The notes under the pieces: generated by a model
Seen by the model: the letters and a program-made list of their open reading frames with translations, nothing else
Told to the model about the DNA's origin: nothing
The model's database searches: none
Part shown: one piece after another, positions 4,856-48,827 of the stretch
Layout: every line of letters starts with the position of its first letter
How positions within the stretch are numbered: position 1 is the first letter of the stretch
Position numbers and translations under genes: made by a program
DNA from: Eubacteriales bacterium
GTDB lineage: Bacteria > Bacillota > Clostridia > Saccharofermentanales > UBA5734
DNA: 55,272 bases
Direction: 5' to 3'
Assembly (NCBI GenBank): GCA_028685755.1
Contig: JAQUDJ010000008.1
Span: forward strand, 29,655 to 84,926

Positions 4856-5479
4856 ATGACAGAGCTAAACACACCCAAACACCCTCACAACAAAGCACGC
4901 ATGACATCCCGCTGGGTCGCAAAAACGGGCGTCCTAGCAGCCGTTGCGATCGTTCTGATGTACATCGAATTTATGATTCCGCTTATGCCGTCATTCCTAA
5001 AGCTCGACTTGAGCGAAGTGGCAGTTTTATTAGCAGCCTTTACCCTTGGACCGGCGACCGCGATTTTGATTGAACTCATCAAAAATATTGCGCATTTGCC
5101 AGCTTCACAATCGCTTTATGTCGGCGAATTGGCCAATTTTATCATTGGATCGCTGTTTGTTGGCACCGCCGGCTTGATTTACAAACAAAATAAAACCCGA
5201 AAAGGTGCGATGATCGCCCTCGCGCTGGGAACAGTGGCGATGACGGTCGGTGCGAGTGTGATCAACTACTTTTTTATGCTCCCCTTTTACATCAAAGTCA
5301 TGGAATTCCCTATCGAAGCGATCATTGGCATGACTCAAGCTGTCGGCAACACGCTCGTGACGAGCCTAAAAACCTTGATCCTTTATGTGTTCGTCCCATT
5401 TAACCTCTTTAAAGGTCTTGTCGTGTCACTCATTGTCGGGTTACTCTATAAACGTCTAAGTCCATTGCTTCATCGCTGA
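4856..5479 (+). CDS. ribU: Riboflavin ECF transporter S component
   Basis: Multi-TM ~200 aa protein (YIEFMIPLMPSFLKLDLSEVAVLLAAFTLGP) downstream of FMN riboswitch. Confidence 0.92.
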   Translation: MTELNTPKHPHNKARMTSRWVAKTGVLAAVAIVLMYIEFMIPLMPSFLKLDLSEVAVLLAAFTLGPATAILIELIKNIAHLPASQSLYVGELANFIIGSLFVGTAGLIYKQNKTRKGAMIALALGTVAMTVGASVINYFFMLPFYIKVMEFPIEAIIGMTQAVGNTLVTSLKTLILYVFVPFNLFKGLVVSLIVGLLYKRLSPLLHR

Positions 5480-43238: not shown

Positions 43239-43415
43239 ATGCCGGATAAAACACTCAATTGCAAAGACTGTGGAGTAGAATTCATCTTCAGCGAAGGCGA
43301 ACAAGCTTTCTACGCTGAAAAGGGTTTCACCAATGAACCCCTCCGCTGCCCGGATTGCCGTCGCGCTCGCAAACAACAGCGCAACAACGAACGTTACAAC
43401 AACAACAGCTGGTAA
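43239..43415 (+). CDS. 58-aa zinc-ribbon protein (not in supplied ORF track)
   Basis: MPDKTLNCKDCGVEFIFSEGEQAFYAEKGFTNEPLRCPDCRRARKQQRNNERYNNNSW; SD aaaggagg; CxxC..CxxC; followed by terminator. Confidence 0.88.
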   Translation: MPDKTLNCKDCGVEFIFSEGEQAFYAEKGFTNEPLRCPDCRRARKQQRNNERYNNNSW

Positions 43416-43443
43416 TCCGCTGAACCGTTAAGCAACGTGAACA

Positions 43444-43476
43444 AAACCGCTCTGGCATGCCAGAGCGGTTTTTTTA
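43444..43476 (+). terminator. Rho-independent terminator
   Basis: AACCGCTCTGG-CATG-CCAGAGCGGTTTTTTT. Confidence 0.92.
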
Positions 43477-43518: not shown

Positions 43519-43633
43519 TGTATGCACATACGTGGCACGTGTCAGACACCAAATGTCTGTCAAGTGGAATTTTAGGTAAACTTTGTGGAAATACCTGCAA
43601 AGAAAACGCATAAAGGATTTGGTAAGCTAAATT

Positions 43634-44557
43634 ATGATCAATACAAAGTGGATCCGAAGATTTAGTTTAGTTTTGAGTGTTGCTTTGGCAACATCAATCT
43701 TCATGGGGTGTACGCAACAGACCAATCTAAGGTATGCACTTTGCATCAGTCATCTGTCGAACAATTTCACCAATACCTTAGCGCGGGCAATCCGTGATCG
43801 AGCAGATGAATTGGGAATTGACTTAGTTGTGCTAGATGCTCAACAAAGTGTCGCACGTCAAGCGAACCAGATTGAGACGCTTGTGAACGATGGAATTGCC
43901 GGAATTATCATCGAACCGGCTGCAACTAAAGGTCTAGATGATGCGCTTGATCTTTGTGAGCAACAAGGTATACCCGTTGTGCTAGTTACCCAGCGGATTG
44001 CTAATGAAGCGACAATAGACTGCTTTGTTGGACCTGATTCCCGTGAGGGTGGCCGTTTACAAATGGCATACTGCTTAGAACAGCTTAACAATCAAGGTGA
44101 GATTGTGATTCTCCACGGCCCAGTTGGTGCTTCAGCTCAACAATTGCGCTATCTTGGCTACCATGATGTTTTACTTGGAAAGCCCGATGTGCAAATTGTG
44201 GCTGAACTCAATGCTGACTGGAGTGAATCCAAAGCCCAAGAAATTGTGGCAAATTGGTTAGCCGCCGGCAAACGATTCGATGCCGTGGTTGCGCAGAATG
44301 ATGAAATGGCCCTGGGAGCCCTTGCTGCGCTTGAAGCGATAGACCTTGCGGATCAAGTTGTCATCGTTGGCGTGGATGCTTCACCGGAAGCGATTAGTGC
44401 TGTCTACGCCGGCAAAATGTCCGCCACGATTTCGCAACAAACTGACCTACAGGGAACCCAAGCTTTAGATGCCTGCATTGCCCTTGCAAATCATCAAACC
44501 ATCCAAAAAGAAATATTTATCGATCAGCTTATCGTGTCAGAAGACAGTATCCATTGA
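43634..44557 (+). CDS. Sugar-binding lipoprotein (RbsB/periplasmic binding protein family)
   Basis: Lipobox-like SIFMGC; GIAGIIIEPAATKGLDDALDLCEQQGIPVVLV. Confidence 0.85.
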   Translation: MINTKWIRRFSLVLSVALATSIFMGCTQQTNLRYALCISHLSNNFTNTLARAIRDRADELGIDLVVLDAQQSVARQANQIETLVNDGIAGIIIEPAATKGLDDALDLCEQQGIPVVLVTQRIANEATIDCFVGPDSREGGRLQMAYCLEQLNNQGEIVILHGPVGASAQQLRYLGYHDVLLGKPDVQIVAELNADWSESKAQEIVANWLAAGKRFDAVVAQNDEMALGALAALEAIDLADQVVIVGVDASPEAISAVYAGKMSATISQQTDLQGTQALDACIALANHQTIQKEIFIDQLIVSEDSIH

Positions 44558-44580: not shown

Positions 44581-45048
44581 ATGCCGATCATCAAATATCG
44601 CGTCACACTGTCCCAATCAGATCGCCACAAACTAGAAGACCTTCTGAGCACTGGACGGTTGAATCGACGAACGAAGATGCATGCTGAAGTGCTTTTAATG
44701 GCGGATGAAAATTCTGCCAGTCATAAAATGAGTGAACAAGCGATCGCTAATAAGCTTGAAATCAACTCCCAGACCGTTCATACCATCCGCCGGCGATATG
44801 CGCAGCACGGACTTGAGGCCGCAATCAGTCGCAAACCTCGTCAGCCAACTGCGAATCGGACTCGAATAACACCGGAAGTTCGCAAGCAGATCATCGCATT
44901 GAGCCAGACAATACCACCAGCTGGCAAATCGCGCTGGACCCTGCGGCTGTTGGCACATCATGTGCGCGAGCAGCAAATCATCGACCGGATTTCACATGAG
45001 ACCATCGGCCAGGTCTTAAAAAGTGCGAGTCAACAAGGTATAATTTAG
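44581..45048 (+). CDS. Truncated IS630-type transposase N-terminal HTH protein lacking DDE domain
   Basis: YRVTLSQSDRHKLEDLLSTGR...SEQAIANKLEINSQTVHTIRRRYAQHGLEAAISRKPR...RWTLRLLAHHV...ISHETIGQVLKS then stop; ATG 44581 with SD gaggagga. Confidence 0.75.
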   Translation: MPIIKYRVTLSQSDRHKLEDLLSTGRLNRRTKMHAEVLLMADENSASHKMSEQAIANKLEINSQTVHTIRRRYAQHGLEAAISRKPRQPTANRTRITPEVRKQIIALSQTIPPAGKSRWTLRLLAHHVREQQIIDRISHETIGQVLKSASQQGII

Positions 45049-45072: not shown

Positions 45073-46806
45073 ATGCATAGAAGCATCAAGTACCGCCTGT
45101 TTCGCTCGTTCGCGATACTCGTAGTTATTCCGACACTCATCGTCATCTTGACAATCAATTACTTCTATTTTTTAAATACACGTTTAACCATTACCAATCA
45201 GGGTAATGCCGTTGCCGCAGAAATCGAAACGAGCTTACTTGATCAATTTGCGCGCTATGAATCACTTTTAGACTTCATTGAGCATGACGCCATGGTGGTA
45301 GGATTCGCAGAAGATCAGGGTACAACACTTACGCATACTGAAAATGAAGGCGATCTGATACGATTGCTACAAGGCTATGCCAATAGCATTGAAGGGATTG
45401 ATAGCATAACGATCCTCTACACCAATCAATATCTTGTCAATTCAGCCTATCAATTTAATGAACTCAATGCGCTCAACTCACCTGCGATTTCAATCGATTC
45501 CGAATGGTATCAGACGTGTGCAATCAATCCAGAAAAAATGCAAATATTCAATTATCAGAGCGGTCAGAATCCAATGCTTTCTGAAAAGCCGCATTACACA
45601 AGCAGCTTGTCGTTTTGCAAAATGCTCAGAGACACCCATGGTCATCCGGTAGCTGTTGCAAACATCACCGTTCGCGGTGATTTTCTCGGTAAATTCCTAA
45701 CATCGGTTTATAGCCAACAAGGCGGCCAATCCTATCTCGTCACCACAGACCAGCTATTGGTCAATTCGCCACTCCATCTCAGTCAAATTACATCTCTAAA
45801 CAACCCACAATATCATGTGACTCGCCGGGCGATCCAAGGTCTACCACTGACAATTATTAATGTTTTGCCCTTAAGACCGTATAACAGCTCGCAGCTCACA
45901 TTTATTTTACTTGGGATTTTTTCGACTTTTGCATTTATGGTGCTCTATTTTGTACACGCACGATATACAAGCAAACAATTTTTACAACCAATCGACGATT
46001 TGCGTAAGTTGATGCAAGAAGCTCAAAAAGGCAATTTGAAGGTGTCTTTCGACCCCCATACCCACGATGAATTTGAAGAGTTGGCGATGAGCTTCAATCT
46101 CATGGTCTCAGAAATACGTGATCTCATCAGTCAGGTATATGTCGAGCAATCGAACAAACGCAAGGCAGAAATTGCCGCCCTCCGTGCACATATTAAGCCC
46201 CATTTTTTATATAACACACTCGATACCATTCACTGGATGGCGCGTCGCCGCGAAAATGATAAGATTGTCGAAGCGGTCGATGCCTTGTCAGACCTGTTTC
46301 GGGTCGGTTTTTCAAGTGACCATGAGCTTGGCACAGTTCGCAAAGAATTTACACATATCGAAAGTTACCTCAAAATTCAGAAGCTTCGTTATGAGGACAT
46401 TCTTGATTATGAGCTAATCATCGATCCATTGGCCACGGACTTGCCCCTGCAAATGACGATCTTACAACCGATTGTTGAAAATGCGCTTTATCATGGCATC
46501 AAGGAAAGTGGACGCAAAGGCAAAATTACGATTTCAGCTTATGTGGCAAACAAGGAATTGAACTTATGTGTTCATGACAATGGACAAGGCATGTCCCAAG
46601 AGATGCTTGAGACAATTCGCCTGCGACTCGTGTCGCCATCTGAAGAAAGTCCCAATCATGGGATTGGTCTCATGAATGTCCAAATGCGCCTAAATTTAAG
46701 CTACGGAGGTTCCTATGGCTTGTCAATTGAAAGTCGATTGAGTGAAGGTACGACCGTCTGTATTCATCATCCGATTCTCAATCAGACAACACCAGGAGTG
46801 ACATGA
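45073..46806 (+). CDS. Sensor histidine kinase (YesM/LytS-like, HAMP + His_kinase)
   Basis: ALRAHIKPHFLYNTLDTIHWMARR; N-box PIVENALYHGIKES; two TM segments. Confidence 0.9.
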   Translation: MHRSIKYRLFRSFAILVVIPTLIVILTINYFYFLNTRLTITNQGNAVAAEIETSLLDQFARYESLLDFIEHDAMVVGFAEDQGTTLTHTENEGDLIRLLQGYANSIEGIDSITILYTNQYLVNSAYQFNELNALNSPAISIDSEWYQTCAINPEKMQIFNYQSGQNPMLSEKPHYTSSLSFCKMLRDTHGHPVAVANITVRGDFLGKFLTSVYSQQGGQSYLVTTDQLLVNSPLHLSQITSLNNPQYHVTRRAIQGLPLTIINVLPLRPYNSSQLTFILLGIFSTFAFMVLYFVHARYTSKQFLQPIDDLRKLMQEAQKGNLKVSFDPHTHDEFEELAMSFNLMVSEIRDLISQVYVEQSNKRKAEIAALRAHIKPHFLYNTLDTIHWMARRRENDKIVEAVDALSDLFRVGFSSDHELGTVRKEFTHIESYLKIQKLRYEDILDYELIIDPLATDLPLQMTILQPIVENALYHGIKESGRKGKITISAYVANKELNLCVHDNGQGMSQEMLETIRLRLVSPSEESPNHGIGLMNVQMRLNLSYGGSYGLSIESRLSEGTTVCIHHPILNQTTPGVT

Positions 46807-48020
46807 TGAAATTTAAAGTATTGATTGCTGATGACGAGCGGGTAATCCGCGAAGGTATGGCTGCCCTAATCGATTGGGACAAATTGGGATTTGAGGTATG
46901 CTGTAAGGCCACAAACGGAATAGAAGCCTTGGCGATGATTGAAGAACACCGCCCAAATCTTCTATTGGTCGACATCCAAATGCCTCTATTAAATGGATTG
47001 CAGTTGATTGAAAAAGCACGTGAAGCTCAACCTGATTTGCTGTTTATCATTATCTCAGGGCACGATGAATTTGACTTTGCGCGCAAAGCAATCAATCTCG
47101 GTGTCCGCGACTATTTGCTCAAACCGGTCAAAGAGACTTTGCTATATGACTCAATCAATAAGATTCGCAATGAGCTTCTATTAAAAGCTCGGCAGCAGTC
47201 GCAATATAATTTCGCCATGTCGCAATTACAAAAGAATATGACAGTGTTGCGGGATCAATTCTTGCAACAATTAATCATAGGTCAGTTTGTGCAGGAAGAA
47301 GTTGATGAAATGCTCGCTTTCCACGAATTGCAGCATGGGTTTACGCATTTTTGCCTATTGCGGATCGACCGAACCACGTCCGGATTTTCGATGACAGGTG
47401 AATGGGACCGCCATTTGTTGCGCTTTGCGATGCAAAACATCTTTGAAGAAAAACTGAGCGAATGCGGCAACATGATTTGTACCGCTGATAATCAGAGTAA
47501 TTTATTTGCCTTGCTACGCATTGACCGACAGGATCAATGGCAGAACCTTAGCACGGTTTTGATGAAAGTCTTTCGCGAGACGTTGGGGATTGAAATTCGC
47601 TTGGACAAAGCTTGCTTTGGTGAAGACTGGACGTTGATCACCGACTATTATCAGGAATGGGTCAATGAGCAAATTAGACCATTGAACAGACTGACCGAGC
47701 GAGCAGTTGCCTACCTAGAACTACATTTCGGCGATCCGGAACTCTCATTTCGGCGGCTATGTGAAGCACTATTTGTTAGTTCGAGCTATTTAAGTAAAAT
47801 CTTCAAGCAAGACACGGGCGAAACGTTTGTTGACTATCTCACGAAGATTCGGATTCAAAAAGCCTTGCAATTGCTGGCTAACCCAGCGTTAAGAATGTAC
47901 GAGGTTGCTAATATGACTGGCTACAAATCGCAGCACTATTTTTCAGCTGCTTTCAAACGGATCTTAGGGGTTACGCCGTCTGAATATCGTGCCCGCAGTA
48001 GTAAGTCTGTGCTAGACTAA
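46803..48020 (+). CDS. AraC-type response regulator (YesN-like)
   Basis: Receiver MKFKVLIADDERVIREGM...LLVDIQMP; C-terminal AraC HTH MTGYKSQHYFSAAFKRILGVTPSEYR. Confidence 0.92.
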   Translation: MMKFKVLIADDERVIREGMAALIDWDKLGFEVCCKATNGIEALAMIEEHRPNLLLVDIQMPLLNGLQLIEKAREAQPDLLFIIISGHDEFDFARKAINLGVRDYLLKPVKETLLYDSINKIRNELLLKARQQSQYNFAMSQLQKNMTVLRDQFLQQLIIGQFVQEEVDEMLAFHELQHGFTHFCLLRIDRTTSGFSMTGEWDRHLLRFAMQNIFEEKLSECGNMICTADNQSNLFALLRIDRQDQWQNLSTVLMKVFRETLGIEIRLDKACFGEDWTLITDYYQEWVNEQIRPLNRLTERAVAYLELHFGDPELSFRRLCEALFVSSSYLSKIFKQDTGETFVDYLTKIRIQKALQLLANPALRMYEVANMTGYKSQHYFSAAFKRILGVTPSEYRARSSKSVLD

Positions 48021-48080
48021 ATCCGACATGCAGACTTGCTGGGGGAACACATTGATTTTACTGTGTATAGACTAATCGGA

Positions 48081-48827
48081 GTGAACGTGAGCCATCTTAA
48101 AATAGAAATCGATCAACTTCATTTTGCCTATCCGAATGGTCGCCAAATTTTGACAGATTTGTCACTTGTAATCGAACAAGGCGAATCAGTTGGAATAATT
48201 GGAGCTAATGGTGCAGGCAAATCGACCTTGCTACAATTACTCGTTGGGTTGCTGTTGCCGCAATCAGGGCGGATCATGGTCGGGCATACTCCACTAACCC
48301 CAAAAACGTTGCCCTGGATCAGGGAACGGATCGGTCTAGTCTTTCAAGACCCAGATGATCAATTGTTTTTACCGACAATCGGTGAAGACGTCGCCTTTGG
48401 CCCACGAAATCGTGGCCTCGATGAAGCCACCGTCAGTCAACTCGTTGAACACGCGCTAGCGAGCGTGAACCTCGCTGGTCTCCAAGATCGCCCACCTTAT
48501 CAATTATCCGGAGGCGAAAAAAAAGCTGCCTCTTTGGCAACCATTTTGGCGATGGAACCTGATGTCCTCGCACTCGATGAACCAACGGCGTCGCTTGACC
48601 CACGTGCCCGCCGCGAGGTGATTGAACTCCTCAAACAATTTAAGCACACGCGACTTGTCACAAGTCATGATCTTGATATGATCCTCGACGTCTGCGATCG
48701 GACTATCGTCTTGCAAGCTGGACGCATTATCGCCGATGGTCCTAGTAACAGTATCCTGACCGACGAGAAACTCTTGCAAGCTGCAGGCTTAGAACTGCCG
48801 CTTCGCTTACAGCCGCGGCCTTTTTGA
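48081..48827 (+). CDS. Orphan ECF-type/CbiO-like ABC ATPase
   Basis: IDQLHFAYPNGRQILTDLSLVI; GANGAGKSTLLQLLVGLL; VFQDPDDQLFLPTIGEDVAFGPRNRGL; probable GTG start 48081/48087. Confidence 0.85.
   Translation: MNVSHLKIEIDQLHFAYPNGRQILTDLSLVIEQGESVGIIGANGAGKSTLLQLLVGLLLPQSGRIMVGHTPLTPKTLPWIRERIGLVFQDPDDQLFLPTIGEDVAFGPRNRGLDEATVSQLVEHALASVNLAGLQDRPPYQLSGGEKKAASLATILAMEPDVLALDEPTASLDPRARREVIELLKQFKHTRLVTSHDLDMILDVCDRTIVLQAGRIIADGPSNSILTDEKLLQAAGLELPLRLQPRPF

Follow-up and report, generated by a model that had tools for sequence, protein, structure and literature searches.

Gene order and the 155-residue protein

The locus lies in a 55,272-nucleotide stretch of DNA, referred to here as the window, from genome G000, and was compared with the other four genomes of the genus (G001-G004), which comprises uncultured bacteria of the Clostridia type; all genomes compared are draft assemblies. 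Four co-directional genes follow one another on the + strand. The first (43634-44557) encodes a sugar-type binding protein (SBP) of 307 residues, an RbsB-like lipoprotein that matches Peripla_BP_4 with an E-value of 5.2e-60 and scores 163 bits against the RbsB model, under that model's cut-off of 337. The second (44581-45048) encodes a protein of 155 residues, starts with ATG and has a GAGGAGG ribosome site in front. The third (45073-46806) encodes a sensor histidine kinase of 577 residues with HAMP, His_kinase and HATPase domains, and the fourth (46803-48020) a response regulator of 405 residues with a receiver domain (Response_reg) and an AraC-type HTH, both as assigned with Pfam. The gap between the SBP stop (44557) and the 155-residue ORF is 23 nucleotides and that between the ORF and the kinase start (45073) is 24; ribosome site, spacing and orientation are all as described in the original prediction. 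Judged by their families, the adjacent SBP, kinase and AraC-type regulator genes make up the gene set of a three-component sugar-sensing system. On the 5' side, an intrinsic terminator-like hairpin (43443-43472, + strand), consisting of a 13-pair stem and then a T run, sets the operon apart from an upstream conserved zinc-ribbon ORF.

The genes on either side of the operon were also noted. Just 5' of the terminator, the zinc-ribbon-like ORF (43239-43415, +) encodes 58 residues with two CxxC pairs and is kept in all five genomes of the genus. At the other end, an ORF for a CbiO-like ABC ATPase (48036-48827, +) begins 15 nucleotides past the response regulator gene in G000; it is absent in G002, G003 and G004, and there the regulator gene stands tail-to-tail with hydE.

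The 155-residue protein contains the two-HTH N-terminal region of an IS630 transposase, as had been proposed from the letters of the sequence. Pfam reports HTH_32 (1.4e-17) and HTH_29 (8.4e-8), and the NCBIfam model transpos_IS630 (NF033545) gives 53.5 bits (E 2.4e-14) over model positions 11-107 of 299 only, a score below the whole-family cut-off of 100 bits. Because the match is confined to these positions, the protein corresponds to the N-terminal half of an IS630 transposase, without the DDE part. This half is called OrfA below. The five operon OrfA proteins of the genus have a pI of 10.9-11.7. Both predicted recognition regions are well conserved, and residues 61-73 are invariant in five of five genomes; 5.7% of shuffles also produced an invariant run of 13 residues. 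The AF2 model (mean pLDDT 82, pTM 0.54) consists of eight helices folded as two HTH units, the placement of which relative to each other is uncertain. Its best PDB match in Foldseek is the Pax-6 paired domain on DNA (6pax), with a probability of 1.00, a TM-score of 0.33-0.38 and a weak E-value of 0.014; TnsB DNA-binding domains come next, and CENP-B and SETMAR stand lower in the list. Searching the PDB with the OrfA sequence returned nothing above noise. The match of the model to Pax-6 is consistent with a two-HTH DNA-binding protein and is no proof of a paired domain.

Descent from a two-ORF IS630 element

Beyond the genus, nearly all strong relatives of OrfA belong to two-ORF IS630 elements, in which OrfA is followed by a second ORF with the DDE domain. 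This second ORF matches DDE_3 (3e-27 in G727, 5e-17 in G010) and also the C-terminal half of the IS630 model. In these elements, OrfA is a separate product of equal length, linked to the DDE-bearing OrfB via a TTTTAAAAAAAC slip site (A7). The best relative, that of G727, is 52% identical in amino acids and is likewise 155 residues long; it ends 14 residues past LLKK/LKK, and its OrfB starts in another frame after TTTTAAAAAAACGAAC. Since 155 residues is a native length for OrfA, the ORF in the window ends at an ordinary OrfA stop. Thus, the absence of a DDE domain claimed by the original prediction stands, but its description of the protein as truncated where the catalytic domain would start does not.

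None of the five operon copies is followed by OrfB: the next gene begins about 25-30 nucleotides on (24 in the window). Their slip run reads TTAAAAAG/C (A5), the A7 of the relatives being gone. No frameshifted second ORF or DDE domain was found near OrfA, the kinase gene being only 24 nucleotides away, and across the G000 genome DDE_3 gave no match above cut-off. The ends of the related elements are of the CTAGTACnnTGTmAAnnnTAAA type; a scan of the window for this terminal repeat, with as many as 3 mismatches allowed, gave no match, and no inverted repeats were found flanking 44581-45048. A nearby DDE domain or second ORF, terminal repeats, or absence of the gene from close relatives had been named at the outset as evidence against co-option; the first two are lacking, and the gene is present in all close relatives. 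Retained frameshifting within OrfA was also considered and rejected: the alternative frames after TTAAAA vary from genome to genome, in sequence as well as in length, and reach no DDE coding.

In an unrooted tree, the OrfA sequences of the five operons group together as one clade (100/100 support) that is distinct from the IS OrfA sequences and sits on a long stem (1.25 changes per site). A single clade on a long stem fits one capture followed by altered constraint. As the tree is unrooted, it would also accommodate the reverse path, in which IS630 elements acquired what was originally a host regulator, the operon gene then having no transposon ancestry. The distribution of the two forms makes this very improbable. 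Elements with both OrfA and OrfB are dispersed among many families across the phylum, whereas the operon form turned up in this genus alone, no further case being found in the 188 order genomes searched, the 388 sampled from the class or the 398 sampled from the phylum; in addition, the nearest homologous SBP-kinase-regulator operons elsewhere have no OrfA gene. Together, profiles, orthologues, tree and AF2 model identify the gene at 44581-45048 as a captured IS630 OrfA that has two HTH regions but lacks a catalytic domain.

Solitary or broken relatives occur in G038 (C158), G175 and G646, and none of them adjoins an SBP or kinase gene of the kind present in the window. In G646 (L094, 4285-5203, - strand), an IS630 OrfA with 50% identity to that of the operon is followed by an IS3-type transposase-like ORF and not by the usual OrfB. 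The OrfA-like protein of G175 (L095, 3596-4093, - strand), a genome from a different family within the order, is solitary and has diverged very far: it scores 24 bits with HTH_32, below cut-off, and the 8 kb of sequence examined there contain no match to OrfB. It is possibly a second captured copy.

Purifying selection on OrfA within the genus

A search of the 58 nearest genomes located OrfA in G001-G004 with 65-69% amino-acid identity to that of G000 over residues 1-155. All five copies have the same length, start and stop and are free of frameshifts, so the ORF is not a chance one. In each genome OrfA is single copy, is preceded by a good SD and occupies a conserved position: the order truA, NAPRT, PPIase, SBP, OrfA, kinase is identical in all five. 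The regulator gene and hydE come next in G002, G003 and G004; the G001 contig stops inside the kinase gene, the remainder of which, with the regulator, lies on another contig. A contig scan with the OrfA protein alone returned one genus member only, a Eubacteriales MAG.

Selection was then estimated from dN/dS. Among G001-G004, where synonymous divergence is unsaturated (dS 0.35-0.83; 1.7-2.2 against G000), pairwise dN/dS of OrfA is 0.113-0.206 by NG86 and 0.064-0.186 by YN00, the overall range of 0.06-0.21 holding where dS is below 1.4. This is the same range as for the SBP (0.165-0.206 by NG86) and the kinase (0.100-0.166), the regulator giving 0.066-0.089. When G000 is compared with the rest, OrfA (65-69% identity) is better conserved than the SBP (49-53%) and the kinase (40-50%); response regulator orthologues in the genus are 65-68% identical. 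OrfA is thus under purifying selection at the protein level, and its low dN/dS, combined with an identity above that of the SBP and the kinase, excludes a non-functional remnant for practical purposes. The clear IS630 ancestry might have pointed to a recent or decaying insertion of no function, but this is hardly credible for a gene that has neither OrfB nor terminal repeats and whose protein was kept while synonymous sites diverged to the extent given above, data that contradict it. The checks on orthologues and on dN/dS that accompanied the original prediction therefore came out in its favour: four other genomes keep length and position, and a gene fixed in its operon in five of five genomes and under purifying selection is no fresh insertion.

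Selection might nevertheless retain OrfA for a DNA-binding task that has nothing to do with the operon, such as dominant-negative silencing of incoming IS630 elements or an architectural role. OrfA products attach to the ends of the transposon and are able to control transposition (PMC5009743), and the HTH1 helix QTVHTIR is common to the operon OrfA and the IS OrfA of G727. However, neither a second IS630 OrfA (E<=10) nor a DDE_3 domain above cut-off was found in G000, and G001-G004 have one OrfA match each, so there is nothing resident to silence. The strict position within the operon in all five genomes likewise argues against an operon-unrelated job, which we consider unlikely.

Conserved DNA elements and proposed working of the operon

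The five-genome alignment contains a conserved block near the SBP start codon. It is a direct repeat with a spacing of 21 bp (43565-43606, + strand), TGGAATTTTAGGTAAACTTTG / TGGAAATACCTGCAAAGAAAA in the window and TGGAATATTCGATAAACTTTG / TGGAATTTCG-GTAAAGACAA in the relatives of the genus. A pattern search of the five whole genomes at up to 1 mismatch found it once per genome, at the SBP promoter only, and the reversed-pattern control gave 0 matches. A 21-bp spacing suits an AraC-type regulator, and the repeat is therefore read as a candidate, and probable, binding site of the response regulator. The only other copies carry 3 mismatches and lie in G003 (L076, G003:C57:723-748) and G004 (L077, G004:C150:166-191), identical in both, near a flgB-like gene; they are possibly a second target of the regulator, or due to chance.

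For OrfA, no operator was found: transposon-end profiles built from 3, 5 and 11 terminal repeats and scanned over the loci do not single out the SBP promoter beyond its AT-richness. Within this promoter, TGTCAA[AG]TGGAAT is similar to TGTCAAC, the core of the nearest terminal repeats. A transposon-end-like operator is not claimed there, its rank being only that which an AT-rich stretch would give.

The last codons of OrfA hold TTAAAA-17-TATAAT (45016-45044, + strand), a probable internal sigma-A promoter and the joint best of 14 promoter-like sites in our scan (10/12; 9.1 expected in shuffles). Both hexamers are invariant in five of five genomes. They require a Leu TTA and an Ile ATA codon, also invariant in all five, and in the flanking genes of G001-G004 TTA makes up 0-3% of Leu codons and ATA 3-6% of Ile codons. 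That such rare codons are kept invariant indicates selection on the DNA besides that on the protein, and the simplest reading is that the site probably serves as an internal promoter for kinase and regulator. From its position, we would guess that the -35 box derives from the old slip run. These same invariant hexamers and rare codons would suit a reading in which only the DNA matters, the ORF surviving for the kinase-regulator promoter at its 3' end and the protein being incidental. Yet dN/dS is low over the whole gene and the ORF is of the same length, free of frameshifts and equipped with a good SD in all five genomes, so that amino-acid selection reaches far beyond the last 12 codons; we hold this reading to be quite improbable.

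We therefore favour, with reasonable though far from complete confidence, a role of the host-captured OrfA as a DNA-binding regulator of the SBP-kinase-regulator system. In the order of events that we propose, a two-ORF IS630 element would have entered the SBP-kinase gap of such an operon in the ancestor of the genus and would afterwards have shed its terminal repeats, the A7 run at the slip site and OrfB with its catalytic domain. OrfA itself was retained under selection and has been passed on vertically. In the present operon, the SBP would bind a sugar and signal via the kinase to the AraC-type regulator, which would bind the 21-bp direct repeat and thereby activate the SBP and OrfA genes, with transcripts reading on through the genes for kinase and regulator. 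Basal amounts of these two proteins would come from the internal promoter at the end of the OrfA gene. Being co-expressed with the SBP, OrfA would then be a second, sugar-induced DNA-binding regulator of the operon or of distant transport genes. No transporter target of the operon was identified; G000 has 19 ribose-type permease matches. More tentatively, OrfA might be a bacterial counterpart of Pax, now a second transcription factor, and the slip run might have become the -35 box of an internal promoter by which SBP expression is uncoupled from that of kinase and regulator.

In animals, transposase DNA-binding domains have repeatedly been turned into transcription factors. A vertically inherited, dated capture in a defined regulatory operon of bacteria would allow this process to be studied directly, and the locus offers a small testable system of one protein, one operon, one promoter and five species. 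Our literature searches turned up no description of a bacterial regulator domesticated from an IS630 OrfA, a negative result that does not prove that none exists. Two-ORF elements provide an easy route to transposase-derived regulators, because in them the DNA-binding half is already a separate gene product. In frameshifting IS elements, products of the OrfA type are as a rule DNA-binding proteins and are able to regulate by themselves (PMC5009743).

Comparison with known systems

The OrfA of two-ORF IS630 elements, such as that of G727, resembles the operon OrfA in its 155-residue length, in its HTH_32/HTH_29 layout and in its end near an LK(K/S) motif, and is a DNA-binding protein, as the operon OrfA is predicted to be from its sequence. 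Unlike it, the operon OrfA has no OrfB and no terminal repeats, has A5 for A7 and a new C-terminus (QQGII), and is a single-copy gene inherited vertically inside an operon. The Pax paired domain derived from a Tc1/mariner transposase (PMC8290160), and Pax factors, like OrfA, keep the two-HTH region of an IS630/Tc1/mariner-type transposase without the catalytic domain. OrfA differs from Pax in being an independent bacterial event and in standing alone, with no homeodomain; its part as an operon regulator is a proposed one, and the structural match has an E-value of only 0.014.

The layout of the operon is akin to that of CuaD-CuaS-CuaR of Ruminiclostridium cellulolyticum, where an SBP gene lies beside a two-component pair and the SBP senses sugar through the kinase (PMC10384115). 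No transposase-derived gene is described in that system, unlike in the present operon, which in turn has no adjacent transporter and whose sugar sensing is suggested by its gene families. The G797 operon (L103) shares the layout as well. It has the same order of SBP, kinase and regulator, with 22-35% identity to the proteins of the window, but its SBP gene ends at 5316 and its kinase gene starts at 5341, leaving a 24-bp gap without OrfA, and the kinase gene is followed by those for the regulator, a second SBP, an RbsA-type ATPase and a permease.
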